A stretch of 64,000 bases of DNA from Desmodesmus armatus (Eukaryota; Chlorophyta; Chlorophyceae; Sphaeropleales; Scenedesmaceae), in NCBI GenBank assembly GCA_007449985.2, contig VIIQ02000117.1, forward strand, positions 145,001 through 209,000, given 5' to 3'. The notes below the pieces were generated by a model. It was not told the DNA's origin and searched no databases. It was given only the letters and a program-made list of their open reading frames with translations. Made by a program: the position numbers and the translations under genes. Within the stretch, counting starts at the first letter, position 1. Each line of letters begins with the position of its first letter. Below are positions 4,837-64,000 of the stretch, piece after piece.

Positions 4837-7726
4837 TTAACTCGCTCGGCTGATCATGCTGCGCATGCTGGCGCCGAAGTTTGACAGGCGCTCCGAGATC
4901 TGCTGCATGGCTGTGTGGTGGTCGCTGCTCATGCCGCTGCCATACAGCAGCCGCTCGTGCCACACCAGCATGCTGAATAGGTAGGACTTCTCCTGCACAG
5001 AACAGACAGCACAGTGGAACCAACGTCAGCACCCAAAACATTTCACATGTTTTGCAACTGCTGCTACGCCAAGCACATAGCCATGCAGCATCCAGTACAG
5101 CATCTGGCATTTCAATAACAGCTTCCACACTGGACGCTGTATGTTCATCTTCGAAGTCGCTTTCTGAGCTACCAACCACAGCGAAGCTCAGGCTGACCAG
5201 GGCACTGCGGTGCGAGGCAAAACCCTAGCCTCGCCCTTGGCAAAGACCTAAGCCCTAGCTGTGCATCAGGGCACGAGACTCACCTTTGTGTCGATGACTG
5301 TGAGTTGCAGGGGCTGGCCGTTGAGCACCGCAGCCAGGTCGACGTTCATGAAGCGCCCCACCGACAGCTTGTAGCTGCTGAAGTCAATCAAATGCTGCCA
5401 GATGTGGAAGGTATAGACGTGATCGGGACTGAGCTGCATGTCCGCCAGATTCTTTGGCACGTCGCACCACTTGCGGCGTTTGGCGGGACAAAGGGGCTGC
5501 CCTGCAAGAAGCAAAGCCGCACCAGTCCAGGAAAGTGTCGAAGTGCCACCTGCTCTTGCTGACGTCTAGCGATACACCAGCCTGCCAGGCCACTAGTGGC
5601 TTGCCCCAGGCTGCTCTACCGTGTGCAGTCATTCTCCCCATCAATCTTTTTCTACATACCATTCTCATCGAATTGCCTGCTGCAACACCTCTCAAACCTG
5701 CGCTTACGCAGACATGGCCCAAAGCTGCAAGGGAGTCTGCCTGTGGCTGCAGCCAGCTGGGTGCACCTTTTCGGCAGAGCTGCTGATGTCATATCAACAA
5801 AAGAATTTCAGCAAGGCAACCAAGTGTCAAACTTACAGAAGAGAGTGCTGGCAGAACCCAGATGCAGGGTGCCTTGTTAGGTGGCTTGAAACATACCTCC
5901 CCTCCTTACATCAGCAGCGCCACTCACCGGTTTTGTCTGCCAGTGCCGTGCTGAAGAGGCGCATGTCCTCCTGTGCCTGTGCCAGTGGCGGCTCACTGCC
6001 TGGTTGCGATACGTTGACCATCTGACACGCAGCTAGCAGGGGGTTCATGAAGTAGGGTAGCTCAGCATACGCATCAACCTGGCAGCAGCAGCAGCGGCAG
6101 CAGCAGCAGGGGGTTCATGAAGTACGGCAGCTCAGCATATGCGTCAACCTGGCAGTGACACACATACAGGCATACCCGGCATTTTGAGATTGTTGTTTGG
6201 GGGACCTATATGTGCACAGCATTCCATTGTCAGGCCTTGTGATACAGGCACTCTGTTTCTCACCAACAAGATGCACCAAACATATGTAAGTGCACACCAG
6301 CAGTGCCTGCCACTATCGAAGACAACAATGTCAGCCGCAATGGCTGCATTGCAGCATCCGCCTTGGGTTTACGTACGGCCCTGTTGATGACACTGTCTGG
6401 AAGCATCACTAGGTGACCATGACCACCACCCCACTGCCACCGTGCTGAGCCCTCCACCCCCGCCCTCTGGCGCTGGCTGGGGGAAGGAGAAGGAGAGGGG
6501 GATGGAGAGGGGGAGGGGAATGGAGATGGAGATGAAGAGGTGGGCTCTGTCCACCGGCGTACTGCTGCTGAACACCTTTGCAGTCACTAGGTGACCTTTC
6601 CCCACCCTACTACCACAGTGCTGCCCCCCCCCACCCCCAGCACTGGCTGCCCACCTGCGTACTGCTGCTGAACACCTTTGCTGCTGCTGTGAAGACCAGC
6701 TCCCCCAGCCATGGTGGGGCGTTGCCAGGCTTCACAAACTCCTGGCCCATGCACAGATTGCTGGCTGAAACTGGCCTTGTGAAGCGACCCTGCGCAAAGA
6801 GCAGCAGTGGCACACAATCTCAAGGGAGATGCACATATAGCACATATAGTAACACCACAGGGACATGTTGATGCCCACATGCCAACGGTACGCTTTCCTT
6901 CCTTTTCTTAGGTCTGCCTATCCACCTCAGCTCCCGCCAGACAGCATCCATCACACACTTGCTGACGGCTATCTACAAAGAGATGGCTTGTTGTGAACTG
7001 CGCGTGCACATCCAGTGGAAGGACGGGTGATGTTGCTGCCCGCTAAGGAATTGCACCAGCTGTAAGTGAGATCAAACCTGAATCTTGCATAAGCATGCTT
7101 GCTAGTGCATGCACGCTACCTTGCAGAGACTGGTGCACCTGGCCCCCCATCGCTGCTGCTGGTGCAAGATCATCGTGTGTATGCACACCTGGCACATGAC
7201 CTGGAAGAAGCGCTTCTTGCCCTCAAACAGCTGCTGCTGCGTGTTTTGCAGGCCTCGTAGGTGGATTTCCATGACACCCTCGAAAAAGGCTGACTTTATG
7301 CGGATGGGGCCTTGGTTGATTGGGAGCTGGTGCTGGCGGTCCTGGGTGCCGTTTAGTTCCTGCAGGACAAAATCATATCAATGAAGCTGTTGTAAGCTTC
7401 AAACTTTACGATTACTGCAAGGGCCAAACAACGGCGGCATCTGAACAGCGAGCGTTTCCCGCCAATGACGTGATGGCCTGTCTATGCACCTGGGATTGCA
7501 CGATGGGGTTGGCCGTCACAATCACAGGGCGCGTTTGTGCGTTCTGAAAGGATTCTTGTGAAGGCATGGCTGGTTGGTGCCAGGGGTGGACGTGCCCTGG
7601 CAAGACATCGAACCCTCCAGCACAGCGTTCATGGCCTGCAAGCGGCTGCTGCTTCTTGAGAGTGCTATCACAGCACTCTTTTGCTGCTCTGACAACTGCT
7701 GCAGCAATTGCCGTCGCTGCTGACAT
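4837..7726 (-). CDS. Duc1/DUF1769 (UPF0590) family protein
   Basis: Six-exon model: 7726-7490, 7359-7189, 6789-6655, 6078-5928, 5501-5284, 4992-4837. All junctions are GT-AG and phases agree, giving 355 aa. Landmarks in order: FFEGVMEIHLRGL, FEGKKRFFQVMCQ joined across a splice to GRFTRPV, VDAYAELPYFMNPLLAACQ, YTFHIWQHLIDFSSYKLSVG, LNGQPLQLTVIDTK joined to YLFSMLVWHERLL. This order (strand-rich N-terminal half, FxGKKRxFQ...GRFKRPV, 'YTF...DF', 'NGQP', and 'WHERLL' near the end) is what I know of the Duc1/DUF1769 family, whose fission yeast member sits at the cell cortex. The N-terminal ~60 aa before SQESFQ are weakly conserved-looking. Two exons have partial duplicates in neighbouring introns (separate entries), so splicing at those edges should be checked on cDNA. 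Confidence 0.75.
6037..6155 (-). repeat. Duplicated 5' edge of Duc1-gene exon 4
   Basis: A block of about 50 bp ending in the 3' splice site and the first ~43 bases of exon 4 occurs twice, 67 bp apart (about 6037-6085 and 6104-6152). Both copies read CAG then V-D-A-Y-A-E-L-P-Y-F-M-N-P. They differ at four positions, all third codon positions and all synonymous. Reading through the upstream copy into the downstream one meets a stop, so only the downstream acceptor (at 6078) gives the full protein. Confidence 0.85.
6551..6680 (-). repeat. Duplicated 3' edge of Duc1-gene exon 3
   Basis: Positions 6651-6680 (end of exon 3 with its donor) and 6551-6580 (inside the following intron) match at 29 of 30 bases, exactly 100 bp apart. 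The single mismatch turns the donor context CAG/GTGG into CCG/GTGG in the intronic copy. Adjoining intron sequence (CACTAGGTGACC...GCTGGCTG) is also duplicated, with a GA-rich insert in one unit. Confidence 0.8.
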
Positions 7727-9166
7727 CGCGTGTGCTGCAGATAAAGTCTGCCTGGGATGACGGGTAAGCTGCGGAGGATGGGCGTGATGAACTCAAACGA
7801 CGATTGATTGAATGTAGGTGATGATGGTTCTGAATAAGGCGTGAGTATCGTCTGGTGGGGAAATTGTGAGGGGTGGGGGTGGAATGGCGCGAGGCGCCGA
7901 GGAAGCGTGAAGAATGGATAGGAAGAATGAATAGTGGATATGGATAATGGATAATGGGTGTGGGTCCAGCCTGGAACACCTGGCTGGGTGCATAGCACCG
8001 AGAGGCACCCGGCTGTAGCATCTTCCGCCGGTCCGGCACACCTATGACCAGCACGGACTTCAGCGAAATGCGAAATACACACATATTGGTTTGTCAGAAG
8101 CCTCTATGGTGAACCAGGGGAGATTGGCAGTCAAACCAAGGCAAATCTGCATCGATGCATGTATTGCTCAGCAGTGGCCTGCCTCAATGCGACTAATGAC
8201 AAGGTTTGATGACTGCGACCATCATATCAACGGCTCAGTATACATCAATTTATATTGGTGCCATACACAATAGGGGTGTGATTCCTGCAGCACTTTTTGT
8301 GAAAACAGCAAGCCCCCCCCCCCCCCCTCCTGATGGAGGGCGTGGCATGACAGGGGAGTAACCATGCGGTGCCTGCTTGTGAGCCTGCTGCAAACAAACT
8401 GCTGAGTAGCAGTCTCACTGGCTGGTTCTGAGGGTTGAAGATGTTTTCTTCTTTACGTTGCAATACCCATATCAGCCCCAAAACTATTACATCCCTTGAA
8501 TTGCCACATACATTCAGCTGTCCTGGTAAGATTGCAATGCCTAATTGCACACAATCATCGACACATACCAGACAAAGCAGTCCACAGCTGTGCCTCAGAA
8601 TGCACAGAACACACGACACACTGAAGGCCGTCCACGGCAACACTTTCCACACCAACCACTACCGCTGACAGTACCGTTGCGGCTTCACGTAAAATGTTGC
8701 CAAAAGCAACAAAGATTGAGCACATGGCATGTCTACCAGACCGCACACCATCCCACTGCCAAGAGTCCACACACGATACCACTTTTGCAACAAATTGTAC
8801 ACTTCGTTACTGCTGCTGCTACTAGGGTGCAGCATACTCCACTTCCCACCTTTAACCGCCGTCAACACTTTGGACACGATTGGCCCAGGTGCAACACAGA
8901 CACTGACTTGTGCCGCAGGCCAGTGGCAAAAGTAACAAACATCTGTTAGCAGGCCATCCATAGCATAAACGCGTGGACGAGTTGTTGACTCAAAAGCCAG
9001 GCGCTGAACGTTGTGTTTGCCATGCTGCCGTGCGCTGAGCATGCGCAAGCACAGGAAGAGATCGACCGATAGAAAGCGTGCTTGAGAAGCGCAATATCAA
9101 ACCAGAGCACTCACACATTCCACAACTCTGTGATGCCCTGCCTGCCGCCACAGAAGCAATAGCTGG
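7727..9166. other. Intergenic between Duc1-type gene and ArsM
   Basis: It contains the 5' flank of the Duc1-type gene and the 3' flank of ArsM, both on the minus strand, and a run of 14 or so C near 8313-8328. Frames of 129-138 codons at 7668-8084, 8245-8655 and 8659-9048 show no domain or splice continuity. The last may simply be ArsM 3' UTR. Confidence 0.5.
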
Positions 9167-12100
9167 CTACTTGGCTGGGCAGCAGCCGCCGCTGCTGCTA
9201 GTGCCGTTGCTGCCACAGCCAGTTGCAGGGGCAGGGGCAACCACAGGGGTTGGGCAGCAGCCGCTGCTGTTACCGCTGCCGCACTTGGGTGCAGGAGCAG
9301 CAGCAGCAGCAGGTGGGCAGCAGCTGCTGCTGCTATTGCTGCCGCACTTGGGTGCAGGTGCAGCGGGCGGGCAGCAGCCGCTGCTACTATTGCTGCCGCA
9401 CTTGGGTGCAGGTGCAACGGCAGCAGAGGGCGGGCAGCAGCTGCTGGCCTGCTTGGGAGGGCAGCAGCCACCAGCTGCTGGCTGCTTGGGCTGGCATCCC
9501 CCACTTGCAGCACTCTTGCTGCCACATCCACTACCACTACTCGCTGCTGCAATCGCAGGAGTGGCACAGCACCCGCCAGCACCCTGCTGCTGCTTCGGTG
9601 GTGGGCAGCACCCATTGCTGCCGCCGGCGGCGGCTGCTGTTGCTGCTGCTGGGGGTGGGCAGCACCCGTTGCTACCGCTCCCTGCTGCTGTTGTTGCTGC
9701 TGCTGGGGGTGGGCAGCACCCCTTGCTACCGCTCCCTGCTGCTGCTGCTGCTGGGGGTGCTGTCGGGCAGCAGGATCCACCTGCTGCCCCACTGGCAGCT
9801 GCCAATGCAGCAATGTAGGCACCGTCCACCTGCCCGCTGCTGCTGCTGCTGCCAGCTGCCTTGAACTGCCCCTGATGCTGCGCCTTGCTGCCAGCGACTG
9901 TGAAGTGAGGGGCGAGCCAGGAGGCCGACACCATGGCCGCTGTGTTGCCTGACACGAGGACAGGCGTGCCTGCGTGACATGCAGCGACAGGTGGGCTCAA
10001 AGATCAGTCGGGGACACCTTTCCTTCCAAATGTCTTACACACAGCATGGTGCCGCTAGCACGCTGCCAAGCGTGGAAACTGCAAGGCACGGTAACGCATC
10101 CTTGCAATATATCCCCTACACCTGGCACCTCACATCCTTCATCCCCCTTGGGCCCTGGTTCATGTCATGTTCAGGACCCTAAGCAAGATGATATCTGGTT
10201 ATATCTCTCACCAGCAGGGAAGGTGTGCTCGCTGTCAAGGCAGTAGGCATCTGCCGCGCCTGTGATGCTGCCGCTGTAGGTCACTGACTGCCCATAATCC
10301 TCCTGGGGCCCAGCCTCCAGCTGGCCGGGCAGCTTGAACAGCCTGCAGGGCAGGTTGGTAGTTGGGAGGGGGAGAAAGGGAAAGAAACGTGTGAGAAATA
10401 TAAACAAGTGAGGAAAGAGGGAAGGGTGAGAAAAGTAAGTAGTGAAGACTGTGAAATGCAGCCTGCAAGGCACCCCGAAGGTCACTGCAAGCCCTGGCCG
10501 ATCCGACACGCCTAGCCAGGTGCTCATGGGAAATTGGGAAGTTAATGGGGCGGCCTGGATATGGTGTGTGACGGTGTTGACATATGGGTAACCCATCGTC
10601 TGTTGTGATAGTCAACAGCTTGAAGCTGTCTGCAAGCAAGGGTGCTGAATGCACTTTCAGCAGGTCTGCATATGTCCTGGGTAAAGGATTGGCAACACCG
10701 TTCATGGTCAACAAGGGGCCCTTCTGTCAGTCGCCTGCAGGGTCCAGCAGCCTGCCGCACCTGAATGTAACACTGTAGAACTGTGCATCACCCAGCAAGG
10801 CCCTCAGCTGTGGGTCATGCACCTCAATGGGAGAGGCCTCCAGCACACGGGGGTCTGTGAAACCCACCTGCACAGCAGAGCAGAGACATGATCAACAAGG
10901 CCATTCAGCAGCAGCGAATCACACACGGGAATCCACGAGGGCAGCAATTTGCCACTTCCAACTGAAACCAGCTGTCAACTCATTCTGACCCCTTCGCCAC
11001 CACTTGCACCTTCGTTGACAACAAGGAGCAGCAGCAGGCGGCACGCCATCCACTGGCGTGGTGATGGACCGAGCGGATGCTGGTTCCGCTACCAAATTGA
11101 CACGTGCACTTACTCCACGGCGTGCCCCCTCATGCCCCTGACCCTGGGAAGGCACGCCCGACCCTGGCTCATGGTAGCGTTGGACACACAGCTGTTGATT
11201 AGTCCAGCGCCCTTGCTGCAGTTGTGTCCCTACCTGCTGGCACAGCCTCACAAAGTCGTTGATGGCCAGGGCTCCCCCCAGGCACTCCCCCAGCAGAACC
11301 TCGTGCGTGCGGATGTCAGCCGGCAAGCGCCGGTCACAGTACACATCTGCAGCAGCGCATGCGCAGAAGTAGCGACAGTTGGTGAATACCCAACATGGCC
11401 AGGTTTTTGAGGGTTCCTTGCGGCAAGGCGAGGTACATTGAGGGTTGCTTGCCTCTGCCACTGCAGACGTCGCATGGAGGCTCCAAGACCGCACCAGAAA
11501 CCCCTGCCAGCACGGCAGACTTGCCTGGACATCAAGACGCCCATGCATGACGAGGCTAGCCTTACCCAACACCCTGCATCCTCAGCAATACCAGCCGCTT
11601 CCCCTCTATTTGAGAACGACCAGTCTGTTACCTACACCCTTAGGCCCGCTTGCAGGTTTCCCCTACCTGAGAAGTACACCTCCCCTCCGTTGTTGAGGCT
11701 TCCCAGCAATGCCGCAGGCACCCTCCCCCCTGGTTTCTAGCCTGAACCCTACTGACCCCCCTTACCTGAGAAGTACACCTCCCCTCCCTCTGCTAGCGCC
11801 CTGTAAGCCTCCCGCAGCACTGCAGGCTTGTCGGGCGACAGGTTGATCACACAGTTGCTGATGATGACGTCAACACTGCCTGCAGGGGGGCAAAGTGTCG
11901 AAGTGCAGATCAGTGCAGTACAGGCTTGTACACTTTCACGACGATCAACATGCAGTACAGTGCAGCACGATGCAAGACTGCACTAGTGTTAGCAATGCAG
12001 TACAGGACAGTGCTGGACAGCCGTGCAAAGATGCCTGCCTCTTCCAGCCTTGACCTTGCAGGCGCACGACAAGCGGGGGCTTCTGTGTGTCGTGCATGTG

Positions 12101-14690: not shown

Positions 14691-17600
14691 GTCTGTGCTG
14701 AATGCGCAGCCCCAGACCTGGTCGCTGTGCTCAGTCATGGTCTGGACAAGGCTGCGGCTGGACAGCTCCCACAGCTTCACCTGAAAGGGAGGGGGCGCAC
14801 AGAGAAAGGGGGGCAGCGGTCCATTACACAGAGTGTGTGTGTATGTAGACACAGGAAGTGGGGGTGGACACAGGAGGTGTCGCAACCTAAGCCCACCGTG
14901 ACCGACTCAACCATCCTCATTCCATGAAGATTTTACCTTGATGATCCTCCTTTGCATCCCTGTCAATGTCACAAAGACCCACTTCCACCACCATCACCAC
15001 CACTTCCACCACCACCAGCCCACCCGCCCCGCAAACACACATATGCACACCCGTTTTCCCCTGATCCCCCCCTCCCCCCCGGACCCCTGCCGCTGTTGCG
15101 GCTGGCTCACCTTTGCGTCGCTGCTTGATGTAGCAAACACACCGCCCTCAGGGTGCACTGCCACATCCAACACCCATGACTCATGGCCTGACAGCACAGC
15201 ACATCAACAGCATAGCATAGCATAGCGCAGTGCACAGCAGCACACAGGCAGCAGGACATGAAGAGGGTTGAGCAGCAGCAAACCACCGCACAGCTTGTGG
15301 TGAAGCTGCAGGAAGAGGGTTCACGTGAATCAGATACCACAGTGTACTCTGTGCCCAGTAGCGCACAAAAGTGTGACCTTTGATGGTGCACATGTGATGG
15401 ATGTGTGAGAGTTCTGTAGCACACCAGTGCAGCTCACCTGAGAAGGAGTCTATGAGTCCCCCTGAGTGTACGTCATAGAGGTTGCTGTGCATGTCATCAC
15501 ACGCAGTCAGCAGCATCTTGGAGTCTGCAGGGCAAGGGAAGGGAACAATAGGGGGAGAAAGGCGTGTGTGTGAGAGAGGGGGCATCTGGGGGTAGGGTGT
15601 GTGTGGATCAACAACAGACGATAGGAGGAGTTGCTGTGCATGTTGTCACACGTAGCAAGCAGCATCTTGGGAGTCTACAGGTCAAGGAGGGAAAGAGGGG
15701 GGGGGGGGGGGGCAGGCGGTTGTGTGTGAGAGAGGGGGCATCTGGGGGTAACGGGGGAGTGCGCGGATCGACAACAGAAGACACGAACAGTTGCTCTGCA
15801 TGCTGTCACATGCGGTCAGCAGCATCTGCAAGTCTGCAGGGCAAGGAGGGAAAGGGGGGGGGGGGGAAGGCGAAGGTGTGAGAGAAGGGGAGGTATCTGG
15901 GGGTAGGGGGGAGTGCGCACATCACAACATCGGAAGAAACGAATTGTTGCTGTGAATGTTGTCACATGCAGTCAGCAACATCTTGGAGCTTGCAGCTTAG
16001 GGGCAGGGGGCGAATGGAAGAGGGGGGGGGGGCGACAGACAAAGGAAAGGGCTGCAACACCCTCCTGGCACACACTTGCATAAGGATTTGCAGAACAACA
16101 GAACTACAGAACCTACTTGCACACTGGTCCCAAGCACACTGCTGCTCTCCCGCCCAACCTCCCCTCACCCCTCTCATATGAACACAAGCTCAGTGTCTTC
16201 ACACAAACATTATTTGTCCAAGTGTCTCACACAATCGCTTCTGCCAACAGCCCGCAAATGTGACCCCCACCACCATCATCACCACCCTCGCCTGGTGAAA
16301 TGGCCAGGCTGCGCAGGGGTTTGTGGAATTTGCCTTTGAGCGCCCTCCCCCCCCCCCCCCCCCGCCGCCCCGTCCAGCTGGCAACGGCACCCTACCCACC
16401 CCCTGAACTCACTCTGGCACAACCTGAATCCCCTCCCCCCCCCCTCTGCCCCCAAAACAAATCCACCCCCCCCCTCACCTGGTGTGAAGGCCAGGCTCCT
16501 TATGGGTTTGTGGTGCCCCTTGAGTCCAGCGGTGTGCAGCAGGCGACCTCCAGCTGACATGTCCCACACTGCAACAGACACAACACACACAGGAAATGCT
16601 GAAGAATCCATTAGGAATGCACGCATGTCTCCCACGCACTCCAAATGTGCAACGGTGGTGCAGCACCGTCATCACAGCTAAAGGAGCTGCCAATCATGTG
16701 GTCCAAGCCTGAAACACGTAAATGACTGTTGATGCCTGTGCTCACAATGCTTTCACTGGCGTATAAGGAGGGCCTTCACCTAGTATATATGTGCAGACAG
16801 GCAGCCGCTGCTACTCCCCCCCCTCCCGGCGTGCACACACGCTCCCTGCCCTTGCACGCCACCACAACTGCTGCCACCACCTGCCACCAACATCACCACT
16901 GCTGCTGGCAGCACCACACGGCAGCCAGCAGCCAGTACCCCCCCCCCCCCCCCAGCCAGCAGCCAGCAGCCAGCAAGCAAGCCCCCCTCCCCGCTGCTGA
17001 GGCACTGCCCGCTAGTGCTTGAACACATCCTCACCAGCCCAAGGCTGGCTAGTGCTTGTGACAGACATCATATGTCAACAGTGCAACTTTGTCTGATACT
17101 GCAGTACAGCATAGCATTGCACTGCACTGCATTGTGCACTGTGTTGCACTGCACTGCACTATGGATCATACTGCACTAATACTGCACCGGGAACTGTACT
17201 GTACTGTGGACTGTACTGCACTGTGTACTGTACCATCCATACTGTTTCTCCACCGCACCTGCTATCGTGCCATCCATTGCCCCTGCTGCCAGCAGCTGCT
17301 TGTCATGGCTGAAGGCAACCGACAACACAAAACGCTCCTTCTTCGCACCATTGCCCTCAGCCTGGACATCAAGGGCGGTTGAGAGGGGGAGGGCAGGACA
17401 GACAGAGCGCGCATAAGCTAAAACACGGGGTTGTGTGTGTCGACAGAGGGAGTACTTGGATACATGCAAGCTCACTAAGACTGTCGATGTGTGTGTGTGT
17501 GTGGGGGGGGGGGGTGCAATACATGCTGTCACCCTTGTCACAAATTGCTGTACCTTCAAATGGTTTCAGCATGATGCACGAAGATTTGCATCAATGGGGG

Positions 17601-19226: not shown

Positions 19227-20596
19227 ATGCCGGTCGTGACAGCGCAAAAATGGAAATGTAAGTGGGGATAGGCCACGTGTGGTGAAAGGTTGCCACCAGC
19301 TTGTGCTGTCAAGCTCAAGACTCCCCCCCTCCTCCACCCCGCCTCCTCCACCCCCCCCCCCCCCTCCCTGCTGTGGGTTGCTGGCCTATGCCCTCTGGCT
19401 GTGGCGTGGTTCAAGGGTACCTGCAGGGCTAGTCGGCACAGCATCATTGTGTCCATCACAAGTTAGCTCGCAGCAGCAGGCAGCTGTTAACCACCCAGGT
19501 CCGGCCCGCCATGGTGGGAGGCTGCCCACCACCAGGACACAGGGGGTGGGGGGGGGGGGGGGGGGGAGGGGGGGTCCCATTCGTTCTGGTTGGTGGATGT
19601 GGTGAACCTGGGTGGAAAATTCATGAGTGCCTGGGCTTGCTTCATGGATTACGCACCCTGTCCCTCCTCCGCTACCAACCCACTCCCACACCCACACCAT
19701 CCCCATCACCATGACTAGCAGTTGCACATGACTAAAATTGAGTGCATTACGGTGGGAAGGGAACCGTGTGCTGACAGTTATCCCCTGCCCACCCCACTCT
19801 GCTGCTTTCCCAACCTGTGCTGGCCCATTTCCCCGCCCGCAGCGCATGGCAGTCAGCAGGACTTCATGCTGCAGGACAACTGCATCCTTGTGGATTCAAA
19901 TGACGTTATAACGGGCAGCGCAAACAAGCAGGACAGCCACCGTTTCAATGCAGCACAGCCCCAGGGCCTGCTACATCGGGCCTTCAGTGTCTTCCTGTTT
20001 GACAGCAGTGGAAAGCTGCTGCTGCAGCAGCGGGCGAAAGACAAGATCACATTCCCTGGTAAGCCCACAAATTATTTTATGTGTCAGTGTTTGAGTTTGT
20101 TTGGTTTGTTGTATGTTTAATTGAAGGTTGCAGTTGGGATGCACGCTGCCAAAGTAGGGTGGCAGCCGAACAGGAGGCGAGCAAGCAATTGTGTGTGCAT
20201 GGCATCCATGTGTGTCATGGCATGACCGGCCTGCAGCTCGTCTGCAATACAGCATGGGGCATGCAGTCTAAGCCACCATGACTCACTCTGGTTGATGTTA
20301 GTACTTGTTCTGCGTAAAAGGGTCTGGATGAAAGGGTGCCGCAGCCAGCCGCGCAACTGGGTTGGCTTCGCTGCTGTGAGCACATCAACATAAGGCAGCG
20401 AGCAGCTCACGCGTCAATGCTGCTGCTGCTGCTGCTGCTGCTGTCACTGCTACTGCCCCCACTGCTGCTGCTGCAGCTGTGTGGACCAACACGTGCTGCA
20501 GTCAGCCGTCCAATGGAATTAGCTACACCACTGTGTCTGACAGCAGCTGACGTCTTGAACAGGTAGCTCACGTGTTGAAAGCGTGCATATGTTGGG

Positions 20597-20633
<37 letters not shown>

Positions 20634-23101
20634 AGGTGTGTGGACCAACACGTGTTGCAGTCGTCCAATGGAATCAGCTACGCCACTGTGTCTGACAGCA
20701 GCACGTCTTGAACAGGTAGCTCACGTCTCCAAAGCATTCATGTGTTGATGTTGTTGCTGCTGCTGCTACTGCTGCTGCTGTCACTGCTGCAGGTGTGTGG
20801 ACCAACACGTGCTGCAGCCACCCGCTGTATGGCCAGGACCCCAATGAGATCGACTCGGATGATGACATTGCCAGTGGGGCAGTGCCAGGGGCAAAGGCAG
20901 CAGCAGTGCGCAAGCTGGCACATGAATTGGGTGAGTATTGCCTTTGGCTGTGTGAATTTGGGAGGGGGGGGGGGGTAGGCTGTATGTAAAGCAGTCGCGT
21001 GGCTGTGCATCGAGTTCCATGGCTATGTTTCACTTGCCCCAACAAGTGATTCCTCCATGCTGGGGTCAGCGCTGCTGCGCAAAGTTTTTGCTGCTTATTC
21101 AACCCCTACTGCATCGACCCACTCATTTCCCCCACCCTCTCCTTCTCACCCCCCCCCCCCCCCCCCGCGCCCTCCCTTGCAACTCAGGCAGGCATCCCCC
21201 CCCCCCAGCAGCTGGCGCCTGTCTCCCCATCGTTCCTTACGCGCCTGCATTTCTGTGCAATCCACTTGGCTCTGGCTGCCCTCCTCTCCCTGCCCTCCCC
21301 CTACCATCTTCGTGCGTCGCTTTGTCATTCAACTCCATGCTGCTAGCCCTTGCGCACTCAAATTCTCCACGCCGCTCATCAAAACCCCTCCCTCACGCGT
21401 CCCCACCACCCTCATGCAGGCATATCCTCACAGCAGCTGCCGCCTGGGTCCCTCAAGTTCCTGACGCGGCTGCACTACTGCGCACCGGATGGTGACACAT
21501 ACGGACCCGATGCACCATGGGGGGAGCATGAGATAGACTACATCCTCGTGGCACAGGTGCGTTGCTGGTTGACACCCTGATTAGGGATTCATGAACGGGC
21601 TTCTGGGCTTTGAGAGTTACAGTGGGGCAAACGCCGGCATGGAAAACATGCTTGTGCATCTGCAGACGCACCATGGGGGGAGCATGAGATAGACTACATC
21701 CTGGTGGCACAGGTGGGTGGCTGGTTGACACATCATGAATGTTCAACACTGGGGCAGAGGGCTTCTGGGGTTTTGGACAGTTACATCGGGGCAAATCTTG
21801 GCATGCCATGTTTTTGGCAAAAACCCTCGTGGCGCATGTGTGTGCCTAGTTGACACCTTGAATGTGTATTAACGTCGCCAAGTCGATTTTGGTGCCAAAG
21901 TATGCCTCTGGTGTGTCAGAGTTACAGTGGGGCAAATTCTCGCATGGTAAAAGCGTGCAGTCGTCCATCTGCAGACAGGACGATACGGTTGATTGCAACA
22001 AGGCAGGTGCACCAGCATGTGAGCTGAGGTGTTTCTTGCATCCTGTTGGTCTGCCCATTGCTGTGCCATGCTGTGTCATGCTGTGTCATGCTTTGCAGGC
22101 TGATGTTGACGTCACACCCAACCCAGAGGAAGTGGCAGCAGTGAAGCACGTCGACCTACAGGTGTGGCTGTGTCTATTTCTTGAAGAGGGGTCGGCAAGC
22201 GGGCTCCTTGGGTGGTGTGTGCATGGGGGGGGGGGGCACCAGGGAGGGAGGGGGGCATGTTGTGGTTTGAAGGATTGACGGAATTTGTGCCACCATGGGT
22301 GTGTGCACACACCCATGTGGACACACCCATGTGCACACGTGTGGAAGGGGTTGCTCGCAGCGTCCAAGGGGTTGTAGAGAGTGTGGTGCGTGCTGCCGCA
22401 CCCTAGACTGCAGTGTGACAGCACAGCCCTGCAGCACACATCGTGGTGTCAGTGGTGCCTCAACAGCTGGTGTTGCGCTGCCCTGTATTGCTGCTGTGCC
22501 TCCACTTACACCCCAGTCACACCTTAGAGAAGTGTATGCAAACTGACAGGCAACCACTTTAATAAGGTCACCGCACAAGCCTCTGGATGGGTAGCTATCC
22601 AGTATCGAGGCTGGGACTCTGCCCCCCAATACCTGTCTGGTATTGGGGGGCAGATTTGTTTGAAGACGTGAAGGAGACAGGGGGGCGGACCCTCACCGGC
22701 TGGCCACACACACAACAGCTGAGGCCAATACCTGTACTGCGCTGTACTGCTGCTGTGCCTGTCACAGGAGCTTGAAGCGATGATGGAAATCAAACAAATG
22801 GTGGAAAATGCCCTCAAATACCTGTACTGCCCTGTACTACTGCTGTGCCTGTATCATGAGCTTGAAGCGATGATGGAAAATCAAACAAATGATGGAAAGT
22901 GCCCTCAAATAAGTGTACTGCCCTGTACTGTTGTACCAGGAGCTTGAAGCAATGATGGACCCGGACAGCGGCTTGCGCTGGTCACCCTGGTTCCGCATCA
23001 TTGCCAAGCACTTCCTGCCTACCTGGTGGCAGGACCTGCAGACAACTCTCACGACAGACAAACACGTCGACACGGCCACGGTGCACCGACTGGACTGCTG
23101 A
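19227..23101 (+). CDS. IDI: Isopentenyl-diphosphate delta-isomerase (type I)
   Basis: Six exons: 19227-19257, 19843-20058, 20793-20930, 21420-21556, 22099-22161, 22940-23101. They join in phase to 248 aa. Marks in order: MPVVTAQKWK, QDNCILVDSND, GLLHRAFSVFLF, LLLQQRAKDKITFP, VWTNTCCSHPLYG (catalytic Cys), KAAAVRKLAHELG (Nudix box part), FLTRLHYCAP, WGEHEIDYIL (catalytic Glu), WSPWFRIIA and a short C-terminus. It interconverts IPP and DMAPP, feeding carotenoids, chlorophyll and sterols; algal IDI is expected in plastid and/or cytosol. No transit peptide is seen after the chosen Met, though the 5' in-frame region is Arg/Ser/Gln-rich. The 31-bp first exon is the least certain part. Four exon edges have copies in introns or 3' flank. 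Confidence 0.9.
20471..20817 (+). repeat. Three copies of the 5' edge of IDI exon 3
   Basis: A CTG-rich tract, CTGCAG acceptor and GTGTGGACCAACACGTGYTG occur at about 20471-20501, 20630-20660 and 20787-20817 (true exon). Acceptor spacings are 159 and 157 bp. The two intronic copies also share a downstream block (TCCAATGGAAT...GAACAGGTAGCTCACGT). Confidence 0.9.
21507..21850 (+). repeat. Copies of the 3' edge of IDI exon 4
   Basis: The last ~45 bases of exon 4 and its GTG donor (to 21562) recur at about 21668-21718, boundary distance 156 bp, with one synonymous change (CTC to CTG) in the shared exon part. A third, decayed copy ends near 21836. Confidence 0.9.
22061..22098 (+). promoter_or_regulatory. 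Repeat-built 3' splice tract of IDI exon 5
   Basis: Three decamer-like units CTGTGYCATG followed by CTTTGCAG stand in place of an ordinary pyrimidine tract directly before exon 5. Similar TGTGC-type tracts precede other exons in the window. Confidence 0.6.
22619..22653. repeat. Perfect 15-bp hairpin in IDI intron 5
   Basis: CTGCCCCCCAATACC at 22619-22633 and its exact reverse complement at 22639-22653 flank the 5-base loop TGTCT. It could fold in the transcript. No poly-T or transposon ends were recognised. Confidence 0.85.
22765..22985 (+). repeat. Three copies of the 5' edge of IDI exon 6
   Basis: The block GAGCTTGAAGCRATGATGGA, preceded by CCTGTACTG- and CTGTGCCTG-like sequence, occurs near 22769, 22858 and at the true exon (22940). 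Spacing is about 80-90 bp. The first copy keeps a CAG acceptor; the second has TCATG instead. Confidence 0.85.
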
Positions 23102-23417
23102 CTCAAAGCAGTTGTATGACGCTCTTTGCCCTTGTAGCCCCTTTCCGTACAAGTGTCTTCACCCCGTCGGACACTGGCTAGGTTGCAGCTTGGGTGATAC
23201 CATCAGCAGCCTGAGTGGCACAGTTTTGTGGTGTCTTTGAGCTGTAGCTATGTGATCATGGTGTGTCGTCAGCAGTCCTGCCAGGCCTGTTGGATGTGCA
23301 GTGGTGAGGCGCTCCGCGGCCAAGCACTTCATGTCGGCGTGGTGGCAGGACATGCAGACAACTCTCGCGACAGACAGACACGTTGACACGGCCACGGTAC
23401 ACCGGCTGGACTGCTGA
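23005..23417 (+). repeat. Copy of the coding 3' end of IDI in the 3' flank
   Basis: About 95 bp ending in the IDI stop codon (TGA 23099-23101) recur with the stop at 23415-23417, 316 bp downstream. The copy still reads open for about 31 codons (K-H-F ... W-W-Q-D ... T-V-H-R-L-D-C-stop) with several replacements. More 3'-flank blocks (GTGTGTCGTCAGCAGTCC at 23261 and 23513) are also repeated. Confidence 0.85.
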
Positions 23418-25119
23418 CCCTGGCCTTGTCGAAGCTGGGTTGTTGTAACCCCAGCTAGAGTGGGCTCAGCACCATTTTTTGGTGGCTTCGAGCTGTAGCT
23501 GTGTGATTATGGGTGTGTCGTCAGCAGTCCAGGCCTGTTGGATGTGAGGTGCACTGGCCTGCCTTGGCAGTACTGTTTGTGCAGGTGGTGTTGTAGGGAA
23601 GCATGTGTGCCAAGTCCTGCTGCAGCTCAGCAGTGATGGTGCGAAACGGTTCCTGCCTTGCAAGCAGGTCAGCGGCTGCTGCGCGGTGGCTGCTGCTGCA
23701 ACAAGACGGGGAGTGTAGTGCAGTTGCTGTTCTTTGGGAGTGTGCCCCTAGAAATAGTGAATGAGCGTCAGCTCGTCTTGGTCGCCACAGTGGCGGTGGC
23801 TGCTGCTCAACAAGGCTGCCAGCCTGGCAGGTATTCCAAATGCCCTGGTACTGCAGCCGCTATTTCTTTGGGGATCTTGTCAAGTTCTGCCGCAGCTCAG
23901 CGGCTTTCTTAAAAGCAATGATGACGTGTACATGCTCACTGTGCTCCAAGGTGGCGGTGGCTGCTGCACCCCGCCCAAGTGCAAGCTGTGACAGTGAGCT
24001 GGATGGCACGTTCGCTTGCTCACCTCCCCCCCCCCCCCCCCCTGTCGGAGGGGTTGCTGTGGGGATGGCTTGTACTGGCCTCATCTCCCTGTGGTGGTGT
24101 TGCAGACTGTTGGGGCCCGCTGTACTGCCAGGGAGTGTGCCATGTACAAGGGTGAGGTGTGTTTGTTGACTGCGCCCCCCCCCCCCCCCCCCGGTGGCCA
24201 TCCAGGGTCTGCTGTGCGCATCTGCAGTACATGACACGGGTGTGTTGCGTGAGGTGATATTCAGTGGTTCGACACTCAGCCAAACACCTGTCAGTTTTGT
24301 CACAGTGACTTGACGGTGCCCACGAGTAGTGCATCTCACGCAGGGGGGTTTCCCGGTGTGGTGCATCTTTTTGGGTTTTTTTCTTGCGGGGTGTTGGTAG
24401 CCAAGGTTGCATGTGCATGTCACACGTTCCCGAGTGGATTGGGCGGCGCAGTGTGACTGAATATTTGGTGCTGTGACCGGTCTATGTCAGTGTTTGCCAG
24501 TGAAGCTGCTGTTCCTGATTTGGGGTACACCGTGCGTCGTGCACACCCCCACCCTCCCGTTCATGTACTCAACAAGCACAAACATGCTGGACCGCACCAC
24601 AGCAGAATGGTGCTGACAACTGTAGGGTAGAGTGACAAGGCACGACCGGCATAACAGTGACAGTGACAGGTTTGTGTCAGTCGGTGCTCAACAAGGTAGG
24701 TCTACCACATCCAAACATTTCTTACCATCACATTGGTCCTGGTTTAATGTTTCTCATGTTGCTACGTACGTGTATACACTGTATAGCACTTCCGCGCCAC
24801 CTCTCCAACTCCGCAAGCGTAGCACCCAATGCTCACAGATCGCTTCGAAAGGTCGCACTAGCTAGTTTTAGGGCGTGATGGGCTTTGAATAGCTGCAGTG
24901 GGCGCTTACAGCTTCAACCCGTCCCTAGGCAACACCGCTGGAACATTCCACCACAGCTAAGTAGCCGTGGGCATATCCACAAGCCTGTAATTATTGACAC
25001 CTTAAACGCAATGAAATGCAGGCAGTCAGCTCCAATGCTGTGGCTTGGGTAGCTTACAGCAGCTGCAGAGGTGCTTTACTGCTGCTGCTGTTCTATAACA
25101 TGAGGCACTGCTCGCGCGC

Positions 25120-38893: not shown

Positions 38894-40972
38894 ATGATGC
38901 TCAAAGCTTTCGCTGTGCTGGTTTGCGTGCTCGCTCCCGCTGGAGCGCTGGGACAGACAGGCATTGCGAGCAAGCCCGTGCAGCAGGTTAAGGACAACCG
39001 CATCTCTGCCAACAATACCGTGCTGCTTATGCTTGACCACCAGGTGCGCAGTGTTAAGGCAGTTGCCTCCTTTGGGCCCGCATATGCATATGGTATCTCT
39101 TGCATTTCTGCCAATCGCGTCCAGTGCTGATACTGTGCACTGCAGCAGCGCGCCCATCACAAATGTTTCTTTATGAGAAGCAGGAAGTTGCTGCCGATGA
39201 GGACTGACTGTCCTGATCTGTGCCTGCCCCACCCTTTCTCTCACCCTAACCCACCCCCTATGCACACCCTCGTTCTTGACAGACTGGCCTGTTCCAGCTT
39301 GTGCGTGACTTCTCAGTGGCAAACTTTAAGCAGAACGTGATAGCCCTGGCTGCCACCGCCAAGCTCTACGGAATGCCGGTGATCATGACCTCCAGCCTGG
39401 AAGGTGTGTCAGTCCCAATACACGCCATTCCAAGTACTCGCGCATCGCACCATGCCATGAGCAAAAGCGGCTTTTGCTCAGCTCACACTCAGCTGTTGGA
39501 TGCATGACACATACACCCCATGTCGTGAATGCATTCAATCCATTGCCTTGCAGGTGGCCCCAACGGTCCCCTACTGCCTGAGCTGAAGGCCATGTTGCCA
39601 AATGCTCCAAACATTCCGCGCGCTGGGGAGATCAATGCATGGGACTCAACTGAGTTCGTCAATGCTGTCAAGGTGCGTCGCGGGATCATCCCGCATCTCC
39701 CCTTCTTCCCAAGAAAAGGCAGGCCCAGTGACTCAGTGACAGTGCACATTATATCTGTTGCAGAAATGCGTCCCTACCATGCCTGCGCAGCTGGCCATGG
39801 TCGCGCGCTGTGGCACCTGCGCAACTTCCATGCATCACCCACACTCAATGCAAGAAACAGTGTTCGCAGATCTCATCTAGATGGCTGACTGACACACAAT
39901 GCTGTGCCATGCTCCAAGCACCCCTGCCTTGCCGCATCATGCGGATGATCATGCGTATTGTAGCCCAGTAGTTCACACATGCAGCCGCTGCATGCATGAT
40001 GCACAATTGCACTTGCAAGTGCACATGACAGCCGACCACCCACGTTGCCACCCCCCCCCCTCCCCCACCCCCTCCCGCCACCCTCCCCCTCCCTTGTCAG
40101 GCCACAGGCCGTAAGAAGCTACTCATCGCCGGCATCGTCACCGATGTGTGCGTGCTATTCCCCACCCTGTCAGCCTTGGCTGAGGGCTATGAGGTGTACG
40201 TGGTGGTGGACGCCAGCGGCACCTTCAATGATATTGTGAGGAACGCAGCGCTGACACGCGCGTCTGCTGCTGGTGCGGTGCTGATCAACTGGTTTGCAGT
40301 GGCATGCGAACTGCAGAAGGATTGGAGGCTGGGGCCCAACGCTGGACAGGTGGGTGGGGGGGGGGGCAGGATGTGCCGGAAAGTCCGAGGTTGGGGTTGA
40401 CTGTACTACTCCTAGGATCCTAGGGTCCTAGTAGGCAGGATGCAACGGTAGTGCTATTACTTTTGTCTAAAAACCATCAGCTTGTCATGCACAGCCGCTG
40501 GCAAAATGTATAGCATCAGAAAGCAGTCTGGCCCCATTTCAAGGCAGGATTTTGCAGTGGCATGTGAACTGCAGAAGGAGTGGAGGCTGGGCCCAATGCT
40601 GGACAGGTGAGGCGGGCGGGACATGCTGTAACACGCGCTAACGTGCCTGCTGGGGTTGAGTGCAGTAAGGACGCTGGTGCACTGCATTGACTAGTGACTA
40701 GTCATATTTGATATTTACGGTATATCACGCAAATACGACGTTTTGTACTTCTGGTGGGCAGCAAACAGAACCCATTCCAACCCCAGTACAGGGCAGGTTT
40801 TGCTTCATGGGCCGATGCATGCCGCAGAACAGGACCACTTGTTGTATCACTCATGCAGGTGGTTGCTTTCACTGCTGCTGCCCGTGTACAGGGTCTGGGC
40901 ACCCTGCTGTCCACCTACCTGCCTGAGTACGGCAACCTCATCACCAGCCACTCCTCAGCTGCCAAGGCCTAG
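38894..40972 (+). CDS. Isochorismatase-like (YcaC-type) hydrolase with signal peptide
   Basis: Five exons: 38894-39043, 39283-39403, 39554-39672, 40101-40349, 40892-40972. In phase, 239 aa. The family order is clear: NNTVLLMLDHQTGLFQLVRD (catalytic Asp), FKQNVIALAATAKLYGMPVI, SSLEGGPNGPLLPEL, INAWDSTEFVNAVK, TGRKKLLIAGIVTDVCVLFP (Lys and nucleophile Cys), EVYVVVDASGTFNDIVRNAA, INWFAVACELQKDWR, LGTLLSTYLPEYGNLITSH. The N-terminus MMLKAFAVLVCVLAPAGALG looks like a signal peptide, so entry into the secretory pathway is predicted, unusual for this normally cytosolic family. The substrate is unknown. An in-frame ATG at 38807 precedes it, but the hydrophobic start favours 38894. The stop is TAG. 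Two exon edges are duplicated downstream. Confidence 0.87.
40290..40606 (+). repeat. Duplicated 3' edge of isochorismatase exon 4
   Basis: The end of exon 4 (W-F-A-V-A-C-E-L-Q-K-D-W-R-L-G, donor at 40349/40350) recurs at about 40550-40606 in intron 4, boundary distance 257 bp. The copy keeps the GTGAG donor, has D changed to E and one base missing in the GGGGCCC run. Confidence 0.85.
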
Positions 40973-41243
40973 GCCTGAACAGCCCACAGTGCTGACAGGA
41001 GTGGGATCGGTGCTAGCAGTGGAGGCAGCATGCCGTTGTTGTTGGGGTGTTCATGGCCCAGCTAGTGGTGTGCAGTGAGGTTTCAGGAGTGTGTAGATAC
41101 AGGGAGTGCATCCAGTCAATGCATCAACCATCCAAGGATGTGACATTCCAAAGTTGGGTATAAGTGTGTGTGTTTAGCAATCGGAGCCGCAGCCAGTGCC
41201 AACCTCATCACCAGCCACACCTCTGCTGCCAAGGCCTGAACGC
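40928..41243 (+). repeat. Duplicated terminal exon of the isochorismatase gene
   Basis: The C-terminal codons N-L-I-T-S-H-S-S-A-A-K-A and the following GGCCTGAAC-GCCCACARTGCTGA recur at about 41195-41255, 260 bp downstream. The copy lacks the TAGGCC hexamer, so its first stop is the next TGA. Confidence 0.85.
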
Positions 41244-42291
41244 CCCACAATGCTGATAGCACTTTGTTAGTGACAGGAGCGACTGTTAGTGACAGGAGCC
41301 TGGGTGGAATCAGTGCCAACAGGCAAGGCATCATGTCGTTGTTCAAAGTTGTTGATGTGTTGTTATAGTATCCGGTGTTTCATTGCTGGTGTGCAGTGAG
41401 GTTTCATGAGTGTGCGTGTTGTAGCAAGCAGACTTGCAGTGGGCTGGCAGCGGGCTGCCGCACATCTGGCCGGCAATACCAGGGTCGATGCTTTGGCTGT
41501 GGCAGTTGTGAGGACTTGGTGGCCTGCTGGGAGACTCCGTAGTCTCTTGGGACACGATCCTGTCCCCGGGACAGGCTGCTTGCCATCCATGCAGCGCAGA
41601 GCAATGCAGAGCAAGAGTGCTAAGCCTTATCATCACGGCATGACGCCGCTTTTCATGCGTATCATGAAAATGAAGCCTTCATTGAATGAAGATGGCGTTG
41701 CTTGAGCTTTGCATTGAGCTTGTGGGTTGAACACTTTGCATTCTGGTTTCATCAGTTGGAGGCAGAGCTTCCAACCCGGAAACTGGATTGGGCCCTGATC
41801 TGCTGATTGTGCACAGCAGCTGTGGATCGTGTGCATTTGGCAATGCTGGGTGGCAATCTGCGCTGCATGGGTACTGCCAGATGGTGGAACTGACGGAGCT
41901 GCCCCCTTGAATTCCATGTGTTGCTGGTCAACGATACAGCCACACTTATGTTTGGACTCTTTTTCTGCTTTGGAAGTTGAGTTGTCCGCATTGCTGATCC
42001 CTGAGTGATGTCAGTGGCTGATGGCTGTCGCAGGACACTGTGTCCTGGATTGTTCCTGGACTCACAGAGTATAGTGTACCACACATCATGTAACTCGTGT
42101 GCTTTCAACCACCTGCGGGTTACTTTGATGAACTTATGCCCTCTCCTTGAGAAGAAACCTGCGTCAGCCAGCTCAAATTTACACTGTACAGTGGACACTG
42201 GATAGCGGACATACGATAATCATACTTGATTCACTGAATTAGCAATCAATCACGGCAACGCTGCTTGCCTACCAACTTGGTAGTGCGGTAT
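40973..42291. other. Convergent intergenic region
   Basis: 3' flanks of the isochorismatase-like gene and of the CobW gene. It contains the terminal-exon copy (41195-41255) and a repeated phrase GTGTGCAGTGAGGTTTCA near 41070 and 41391. No gene seen. Confidence 0.5.
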
Positions 42292-53150: not shown

Positions 53151-55162
<2,012 letters not shown>

Positions 55163-55944
55163 GCACAGCAGCAGCAGCAGTAAGCTGCTGCAGGCTGGTC
55201 ACCAGCTTGTGTTGGGTGCAGCACGGTATGTACAGGCGCGCGCACGGCTGCGCGCGGCCCCCAGTGTTGCCATATCGTGATGATGTTGTGCGGCCGCTGC
55301 AGATGTCCCTGGCTTGTGAGCTGTCGTGTTCTGGAGTAGTGGGGGTGTGTTCTGGGTTATGTCGGTACTGACATCTGTTCTTCCGTCTCAGGCCCTGGGA
55401 GGATGGGCCATCTGGGCCCTCTGCATGCCTCCTGTGTATCCTGTGTTTTGGTGTGTTTGTCCAGGGTAGGCCCTACCCAGGGCCTGGCCGCAGCTGATTT
55501 GGTTGTGATCCTCACTTTTTGACTCCAATGGCTCGGTTGTAGGTCATAACCTACATGAATGTGGTTCGGGTTGAGCAGCTTGCTCTCTGCAGGCTGCAAG
55601 CTGGCCTTACTGGGTTGCGACCCCCTCTCCCCCCCCAGTGCACAAGTGGGGCCATCACGGGTGTTGGGCTTGCAGAACAGACAGCTCTAATTGCAGCTGA
55701 CAGATGCTGCCACTGCCGTTCTGTCCACCTTCTAATGTAACCCTTTCAGAAACTGGTCAAATTAGTCATCACTTGCACATGGAATTGCAGCTTCCCAGAA
55801 CGTCACATGTTGCTTCTTGTCAGACTTTCAAAGCACGCAATATGGTTCCAATCGAAGCTGAGCACGAACGCGTTGGAGGGGCTGACTGAACCATGTGACA
55901 GCCAGCTAGATCTTGGCACAAGCAAGCAAGCAAGCTCTGCAGCC
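55163..55944. other. Intergenic APS kinase / MUN gene, no feature seen
   Basis: 3' flank of APS kinase and 5' flank of the next gene, same strand. An in-frame ATG at 55807 lies upstream of the chosen MUN start at 55945. A short uORF-like frame begins at the ATG near 55842. Confidence 0.45.
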
Positions 55945-61900: not shown

Positions 61901-64000
61901 CAAAGGTGCTGTGATAGCTGCACGACAATGTGGCTCGGCTGTGCAGCATGCAGACGAGCGCCTGCGGGTGTACTACTAGTGTATTGTCTCACACTCGGCT
62001 CTTGTGGCACCACCGCATGCTACAGGCCATCCTGAAATACGCGCATGCTACGCTGTGGCATGACATACAGCGCCTGCATCCTACTGCCTGTCTGTGGCAG
62101 GGTTGGTTTCCAGTTGAGCAATGGAGCTGTGGTTGACTTGGATGTTCTCTGTCCTGCAGGCGCACTCTGCTAGTGCTCGTGAGGTGCGGCGGATCGCCAT
62201 GGAGGCGCTGGAGGCTCTGTTTGGGCTGCAGCTGCCGCTGCCGCCCAGCACGGTACGGCAGTACATGCAGGGAATCGCGGCAATGATGACCAGGTGGGGC
62301 CATGTGCTGCTCCCACCGCCTGTGCTGGACAACTGTTCCAGAGGCTGCCAGCACTGTTCGCTGCCGTAGGGTAGTCTGGGTAGTTCATATTGTCTGCTAA
62401 GAGGTTGTCACCACCCTCAGACATGAAGCATGTGCTGCGTGTGTTGACACCTTTGACACACACAAAGCTTGCGTTTTGAATGCAGACGTAGGAACCCTGT
62501 ACGTGCTTGCATGCGTGCAAGAGTAGTGCAGAGCCCCTGGCCGTCGTGGCATGCATGCATGCATGCATGCAGAGTCTAGATCATTTCAAGCACGCCTTGT
62601 TTAAGTGTATGCTTGCTTGCACACACACACACACACAGGGGACAGGCCAGCTTGACTCCTGTGCAGCCTGGCTGTCAGCAGCGCTGCCCATTGGCCAGGA
62701 GGTGGTTGACTACAGTGCACGCCAATCCAGCGTGTGTGTACTGGCTTGGTGTGGTGCGTCTGCAGGTACCTGGATGCCATTCTTGCACAGCTGGGCAGCG
62801 AGACAGTCATGATCCCCCCCACGCCACACCTGACCCGCTATAAGCGCGAGGTGGCGGTGAAACAGGTATGGTCCTCCTGACAGGGCAGCAGCTGCTTCCT
62901 GTCAACTGGCATGTACATGAACCTCACCGTGCCTCTCCGGTTGTTGCAAAGTCGTTTTAGCTGTGTGCACATGCCTCTTTCCTTCACATTTTCTACCAGG
63001 CACCTAGGGCTGCATAGTGTTGGGCGAGCGGTTGGCTCAGGCCCAAACCCATCCCTGTTGGCATACAAGCTTCAAAGTCCCCCCAGCGGCTTCGGACTTG
63101 CACCCAAACAGACTTGCTGACTTGTGCTTTATCGTACTGTACCATAGTGGTACTAGTACTGAACTGTTCGTACTGCGATACCAGCTGGCACTGATCTTGG
63201 CTACTGGTTTTCTGTACTTGCAGGAGGAGGCTGAGAGTCAGCTGCCCGGTATGCCCACCCAGCAGCCTGCAGCCAGTGCCACAAGCCGCAAGGGTGTCCA
63301 CTTTGCTGACTCGGTGCGGCGCACTGAGGACGAGCCGTGTGCTGCGCGTGTCAGCGGCCTGACCACCCCTGTGCTGGTGGTGATGATGGCCAGCCTGGCA
63401 TACCTAGCAGACACTCTGCAGGTAAGGGCAGCATGTGGCACTGCCTTGATGTATGGCAGTAGTGTAGAGGTGTTGAAGGCGCATAAATATGGTTTAGGTG
63501 CAGAAAACAGGACAGCATGCCCTACAGTCGGTGTGAGTGGGGACAGCTGCCGTTCCTGGCAGACACCCTGCATGTAAAGGCAGCACCAGGACATGCTTAG
63601 CGTTGTGCTGTCTTTCTGTTGCAGCTCCTGGCAGGCAGTGTCAAGCAGTTGCGCCAGCAGGAGCAGCAAGCACGCACCAGCGGCACCGGCAGCCCACTGC
63701 CAGCCTATCCCATGGAGGATGGCAGCACAACAGCACCTGCAGCTAACCCTTTCATGTCTGAGGGTGGTGAAAACCCCTTAGCAGACGATATAGGCTACCC
63801 AGACTACCCTGCTGCAGCGAACAGTGCTGGCAGCTTCTGGAACAGCAGTCCCCAAGGCAGCAGCACAGGCGGTGGGAGCAGCAGTGGCCCCGTATGGGGT
63901 GCAAGCAAACCTCCTTTACAGCAGCAGCAGCAAGCATCGGGTGGGGTGCAAGGGAAGCAGGGCGGCTGGAACTGGGATGCTGGCGGTATGGGTCAGGGCA
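55945..64000 (+). CDS. PATROL1-like MUN/DUF810 domain protein (right end cut by window)
   Basis: Clear exons: 55945-56282, 56451-56629, 56947-57054, 57262-57349, 57695-57871, 58186-58297, 59247-59410, 59693-59845, 60089-60179, 60408-60589, 60834-60957, 61369-61429, 61702-61841, 62160-62293, 62766-62865, 63224-63421, 63625 to the end. The part 58539-58976 is less sure: LCRLELPLGSARLP and later NSQRRSVGVSGYWS, MYPKITDSINRRAG and FDALDGAEYVPDRDRYLQ lie in three different frames. Family marks: LTEGEVKDLAYLVFACN, FRSFVTWRDTLSHVLL, DDFDEVEYRAASEAVRQQTH, LGITPSMHAAVLAWVHFRQY, VLTQEPQLLAETRQLL, VVDWILERLSDYHKR, LVPWLSTQPVLDEDTCE, PLLSAWLEKQMSGFSLWVDR, QLQQEDWRPLG. Plant PATROL1 is a Munc13-like trafficking protein; the role here is inferred. 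The open 3' exon is Gly/Ser/Pro-rich with an NPF motif. Confidence 0.72.
60365..60407 (+). promoter_or_regulatory. TGTGC-type repeat 3' splice tract in MUN gene
   Basis: TGTGCTGTGCTATGCTGTGC followed by CGTGCTGTGCTGTCTTCAG precedes the exon at 60408. A second tract of CTGTG/CGGTG units (61322-61368) precedes the exon at 61369. Confidence 0.6.
62292..62428 (-). repeat. Inverted copy of a downstream MUN-gene exon segment
   Basis: Read on the minus strand, 62428-62292 gives F-M-S-E-G-G-D-N-L-L-A-D-N and N-Y-P-D-Y-P-T-A-A-N-S-A-G-S-L-W-N-S. This matches the plus-strand exon segment 63751-63895 (F-M-S-E-G-G-E-N-P-L-A-D-D, Y-P-D-Y-P-A-A-A-N-S-A-G-S-F-W-N-S). The copy begins at the donor of the exon ending at 62293 and is antisense to the transcript, so the pre-mRNA contains complementary arms about 1.3 kb apart. 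Confidence 0.9.
63395..63592 (+). repeat. Duplicated 3' edge of MUN-gene exon (ends 63421)
   Basis: Exon end plus donor (CTAGCAGACACTCTGCAG/GTAAGGGCAGCA) recurs as CTGGCAGACACCCTGCATGT then AAAGGCAGCA, boundary near 63573, 152 bp downstream in the intron. Confidence 0.8.

Follow-up and report, generated by a model that had tools for sequence, protein, structure and literature searches.

Duplicated exon edges are real and general within the Desmodesmus armatus sequences studied here, occurring both in the 64,000-nucleotide stretch of contig VIIQ02000117.1 taken as the starting point (the window) and beyond it. Within genes, the tests applied show no preference of the duplications for exon edges. 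The pattern is probably the product of tandem duplications that are small (about 60-330 bp in most cases), frequent and at near-random positions, among which those crossing a splice site are tolerated, leaving an inner edge trapped in the intron and decaying there. This ordinary mechanism explains most of the observation.

Gene models and duplicated exon edges in the window

The sample consists of the window and 24 more stretches (L003-L026) of the same genome, amounting to 25 sequences and 298,108 bases, with N making up half the letters of one added stretch (L009); the assembly comprises 115.8 Mb in 831 contigs. Exons and introns were called by a small hidden Markov gene finder trained on the sample itself, predicted genes scoring below 20 being left out, and introns shorter than 60 or longer than 3000 bp were excluded from the edge-copy counts, the controls and the comparison with simulations. 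Ten predicted window proteins were scanned with Pfam, of which one had no family, the others giving Duc1, methyltransferase, WD40, NUDIX (IDI), isochorismatase, CobW, APS kinase, HEAT and PATROL1-like TPR matches. The protein of the MUN gene matches PF25761 (PATROL1-like). The names ArsM and SKI8 are those of the original prediction, Pfam supporting only a methyltransferase and a WD40 protein, respectively.

The homology check of the predicted junctions covers five genes, SecA, glycyl-tRNA synthetase (GlyRS), COP9 subunit 1 (CSN1), IDI and isochorismatase. In the first four, predicted junctions are crossed by alignments to solved structures, and the alignment to human IDI (PDB) continues unbroken across the predicted IDI junctions. 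The isochorismatase has named homologs in Monoraphidium, Scenedesmus and Tetradesmus at 72-74% identity; its donor after 40349 is backed by algal homologs, and homology sets the start of the next exon at 40892, giving an intron at 40350-40891, so the gene finder's start at 40859 (intron end 40858) is wrong.

Comparing the window with itself, 23 direct and two inverted repeats were found within 2 kb. As originally predicted, directly oriented copies that cross an exon-intron edge, or the terminal exon's end, were seen in the Duc1-type, ArsM, SKI8, IDI, isochorismatase and MUN/PATROL1-like genes:

6035-6155, minus strand: Duc1-type, acceptor and exon head 6035-6085, copy 6105-6155 in the preceding intron (lag 70, identity 0.92)
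6547-6681, minus strand: Duc1-type, exon tail and donor 6647-6681, copy 6547-6581 (lag 100)
11660-11787, minus strand: ArsM, exon tail and donor 11759-11787, copy 11660-11688 (lag 99, identity 0.97)
15481-16035, minus strand: SKI8, tandem array with a unit of about 150 bp across the acceptor of exon 15438-15524 (z 14.2)
16282-16513, minus strand: SKI8, exon tail and donor 16469-16513, copy 16282-16326 (lag 187), the copied donor being GC
20424-20824, plus strand: IDI, unit of about 153-159 bp in 2.3 copies across the acceptor at 20793 (159/316 array)
21183-21484, plus strand: IDI, acceptor and exon head 21411-21484, diverged copy 21183-21259 (lag 228, identity 0.77)
21509-21976, plus strand: IDI, exon tail, donor and intron start 21509-21631, copy 21665-21795 and a partial further copy to 21976 (lag 156, z 19.1)
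22727-22959, plus strand: IDI, 90-bp unit in 2.2 copies and a partial one, across the acceptor at 22940 (90/172 array, z 14.9)
23003-23546, plus strand: IDI, terminal part of the last exon plus 3' flank in two patches, 23003-23102 and 23218-23298, copies 23319-23418 and 23469-23546 (lag 316, then 251)
40293-40620, plus strand: isochorismatase, exon tail and homolog-confirmed donor 40293-40361, copy 40551-40619 (lag 258)
40933-41414, plus strand: isochorismatase, stop-codon region 40933-40998, copy 41200-41259, with a further patch 41066-41093 copied at 41387-41414 (lags 267 and 321, past the stop codon)
63388-63585, plus strand: MUN/PATROL1-like, exon tail and donor 63388-63433, copy 63541-63585 (lag 153, identity 0.80)

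In the second Duc1-type case (site 6654), the intron parts are homologous (z 13.6 and 15.4) once a CT-rich insert in the second unit is allowed, and in ArsM their homology is borderline (z 3.3). When searched against the genome, an 88-base part of the IDI unit at 20424-20824 matches only its own two copies. Of the spacings listed in the original prediction, a 200-bp case in the MUN gene was not found at 24 bits or more; the listed values do not stand as independent measurements, copies of the SKI8 and IDI arrays having been counted singly.

Frequency, placement and spacing across the sample

The 220 introns provide 440 predicted splice sites, and at 39 of these (21 donors and 18 acceptors) the exon edge recurs as a direct copy inside the intron next to it. 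At the same score, no edge matched the reverse complement of its intron, the reversed intron or the intron of another gene (0/440 in each control), which excludes chance. Segments lying 50 bp or more inside the same exons were matched in the intron in 5/275 cases, compared to 29/275 for the edges, and some of those five may be edge copies long enough to extend to that depth. The 39 sites correspond to a score cut of 38, used for the intron-homology set, and a cut of 42 leaves 34 sites, used for the ratio of edge to intron-only repeats; at this higher cut, 26 of the 220 introns (about one in eight) carry a copy of their own exon edge. The repeats are local and direct: at 40 bits or more, the whole sample holds 144 direct and seven inverted pairs within 1.5 kb, and seven direct and no inverted pairs 1.5-3 kb apart. 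Direct pairs at 38 bits or more merge into 72 independent clusters, approximately one per 4 kb.

The preference for exon edges put forward in the original prediction did not hold, as within-gene placement, exon contact and simulated uniform duplications all agree with no preference. Edges are spanned by 22 of 45 genic clusters compared to 43.7% by random placement (P = 0.29), gene-end and exon-only clusters being left out; a further 12 are exonic without an edge under a cut of eight intron bases, eight of them holding 2-7 intron bases, and clusters touching an exon amount to 34/45 against 66.7% expected (P = 0.13). Regarding the introns, those with an edge copy stand to those with an internal repeat only as 26:13, a ratio of 2.0 in which 11 introns with both are counted as edge, and uniform tandem duplications simulated over exon-intron-exon, then mutated and passed through the same detection, gave ratios of 1.60, 2.08, 1.89 and 2.07 under four settings. 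A preference appears when exon edges alone are scanned or when all DNA, including intergenic, serves as reference (22 edge-spanning clusters vs 13.9 at random, sd 3.2, reached in 0.75% of 400 placements), but it is gone against within-gene placement and simulation, and was rejected. The excess over all DNA, together with a deficit of intergenic clusters (20 observed vs 32.3 by random placement, sd 4.1), indicates that clusters are denser, or visible for longer, in genes. Since a tandem unit is uninterrupted, its exon part directly adjoins the splice site.

Most of the lags, taken from the best pair of each cluster, range from 60 to 330 bp, and the 10-bp bins covering 90-119 bp hold the largest numbers. 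The original prediction had placed seven spacings at 150-159 bp, several of which were read from consecutive copies within the SKI8 and IDI arrays, and the proposed spacing of 150-159 bp is not recovered from independent clusters, with 2/17 in the window, 0/55 outside it and 0/72 at 160-169 bp. That the spacing of the duplications is tied to nucleosomes is extremely improbable. Three of the 17 window clusters do fall at 145-165 bp, but outside the window only one of 55 does so, and 3/72 lie at 160-199 bp. A circular test on 65 cluster lags, picked after the histogram had been seen, also leans towards nucleosomes: it describes two weak humps and is strongest at a period close to 160 bp (R 0.37), with P about 0.02 when set against one smooth null over periods from 140 to 170; yet these humps are centred around 106 and 266 bp instead of 158 and 316 bp, with a trough at 160-199 bp, and their positions therefore make 150-160 bp a trough as well. 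The two-humped pattern is a weak lead rather than a result.

Extent, origin and fate of the copies

The original view that local tandem duplication lengthens introns and leaves decoy exon edges is supported by the predominance of direct over inverted pairs and by the intron parts: of the 36 splice-edge copies scored, 15 (such as IDI 21556, Duc1 6654 and SKI8 15524) show homology there as well at z > 3; three of the 39 sites were unscored, and homology of the intron part was undetectable in the other 21 of the 36. A small tandem duplication, mostly of about 60-330 bp, would arise at a near-random site, possibly through fill-in of staggered breaks or polymerase slippage. When crossing a donor or an acceptor it would be tolerated, as splicing from the outermost site still gives the original mRNA, and the inner exon-edge duplicate would be caught in the intron, then decaying. 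In the cases lacking it, intron homology would have been lost rapidly, and selection would purge frame-breaking duplications inside exons. In this regard, five exon-only clusters were observed and 5.1 expected by random placement, so the case for selection comes from the reading frame: four of the five lags are divisible by three (84, 144, 219 and 243, three of them in L021), the fifth, of 224 in L005, being a donor copy that the gene finder called exon. Removal of frame-breaking exon duplications by selection is thereby suggested.

Some of the copies might comprise just the exon edge and its splice signal, produced by a template switch ending at the splice site, where a homopolymer tract, a co-transcriptional structure or microhomology at the splice motif may have set the end; this reading is doubtful. 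Among close pairs (identity of at least 0.90), 8 of 21 are without intron homology, compared to 2, 8, 9 and 15% in a neutral tandem simulation at indel:substitution ratios of 0.1, 0.5, 1 and 2, and the aligned copy in these eight (L004 7299, L008 8719, L012 6714, L012 8674, L013 699, L016 6041, L016 4970 and IDI 20792) holds 3-10 intron bases. Likewise, similarity covers all 12 intron bases offered, the maximum set by the test design, in 5/23 close pairs, compared to 52-73% of the simulated ones. These simulations are simple substitution and indel models, and real intron turnover, with its homopolymers and nested duplications, may be faster. Two inter-copy spacers searched have no other match in the genome, save for a weak match of the L012 spacer to the neighbouring exon tail, which also favours copying limited to the edge. 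However, the intron-homology test failed to recognise IDI 20792, a known tandem array, BLAST extends the L012 8674 copy 24 bases into the intron, and some apparent cases (Duc1) proved to be tandem on closer alignment. The orientation is strictly direct, whereas template-switch repair usually yields inverted copies as well. Moreover, copied acceptors without intron homology keep a pyrimidine-rich stretch upstream, beyond the homologous part (0.615 vs 0.487 at random YAG; P = 0.003, n = 11, among them the IDI array 20792), which fits an origin together with their intron. Edge-only copies as a clean separate class were given up when the class shrank with longer insertions allowed, 11/27 reaching z > 3 (reversed control 1/27). 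Tandem duplication followed by fast intron turnover is the likeliest explanation; it is unlikely that part of the copies come from duplication ending at the splice site itself, taking the exon edge and splice signal without the rest of the intron, which would suggest that a co-transcriptional or splicing-associated structure limits DNA copying.

Two of the spacers have features of their own. In the glycyl-tRNA synthetase gene (L016:5753-6101, minus strand), the exon-edge copies are separated by a spacer containing a perfect inverted repeat whose arms measure about 15 bases, and in the COP9 subunit 1 gene (L012:6715-6907), an older, diverged extra edge copy sits in the spacer that separates the exon tail from its 95% copy.

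As for their fate, the copies are nearly neutral. The codon count covers 31 pairs in which a single copy is exonic, clusters above 250 bp or exonic on both sides being left out. Of their 123 differing codons, 61 are synonymous; the expected share is 38-43% if a neutral copy is paired with a constrained one, and 65-88% when both are constrained (omega 0.2-0.05). Stop codons occur in three of the 31 copies, and these together with the synonymous share indicate that the copies are mostly inert. Conserved coding decoys, considered when the first pairs were all synonymous, were rejected on the share across the 31 pairs. It is accordingly very hard to see the decoys or alternative exon ends as functional and kept by selection, for example in splicing regulation: many copies have a plausible splice dinucleotide by eye, and the synonymous share is a little higher than neutral copies would give (P 0.006-0.07, depending on the constraint assumed for the exon), but many codon differences are replacements, GT is replaced by GC in one donor copy and by AT in another, and 14/39 lags are divisible by three, as by chance. 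A constrained second copy with two splice sites, as in alternative or mutually exclusive exons, was not seen among these pairs, the copies being partial exons with a single splice site.

Similar exons flanked by unalignable introns, as well as several close pairs differing at synonymous sites alone, also resemble an allelic comparison, as would result if the assembly had joined diverged haplotypes or strains and doubled their allelic exon edges. Such an artefact is quite unlikely, because neither of two exons searched has a full second copy in the 115.8 Mb, one having short matches (63 and 35 bases) on other contigs, because identities among the copy pairs spread from 0.77 to 1.00, and because the exon-only clusters hold frame, which is unexpected of an artefact. 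Arrays with multiple copies argue against it as well.

Relation to known systems and intron growth

Patch-mediated repair is known in plants, and a tandem exon duplication, as in mutually exclusive exons, places exon sequence twice beside an intron. The latter resembles the present copies in that exon sequence is present twice next to an intron, but here a partial exon with one splice site is copied and not retained as coding. Small tandem duplications are described as break-repair products in PMC8355091, and share with our cases the local and direct arrangement, the tandem unit and duplication as the primary event; they differ in that the evidence here comes from the genome sequence, and in that many cases have lost intron homology.

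Intron gain by tandem genomic duplication, outlined in PMC3443670 and PMC4974935, follows in the former the AGGT model, where an exonic unit is doubled and the new intron lies between two AGGT copies. In both situations a genic tandem duplication makes extra splice sites, but here the intron was already present and has lengthened, and the gene model makes no use of the additional site. Both copies lie on one side of the existing intron and have the same type of splice site, so that no duplicated AGGT provides donor and acceptor of a new intron. Introners, families of copies inserted into many genes, also in algae, for which a linkage of insertion sites to nucleosomes is discussed (PMC9860276), likewise repeat sequence within introns, algae included. 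In contrast, the present copies are local: no dispersed family was found for one part of a repeat unit and two spacers searched genome-wide, which makes introners or another dispersed repeat unlikely for these three stretches. Among the titles and abstract openings covered, where subscription journals are thinly represented, none describes this pattern.

Tandem duplication, with about one in eight of the sample's predicted introns involved, appears in this alga to be a major contributor to intron growth and cryptic splice sites, and one that can be dated. It offers a natural test case for intron lengthening and for how splicing passes over near-perfect decoys, which, as they resemble exons, are also a trap for gene annotation. 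The duplication rate and the cases ending near a splice site merit comparative study, and a residue of edge-limited copies, if real, would suggest that splicing and DNA duplication are connected.

Other tandem structures are also present in the sample. A 982 bp tandem duplication with 99.8% identity and a lag of 1131 is found at L003:3709-5821, and an array of a 118-bp unit, of about 1.5 kb, lies at L011:2315-3903 in a predicted 16-exon gene. This gene has repeats in several introns, some including an exon head, and its predicted protein presumably resembles TIC110.
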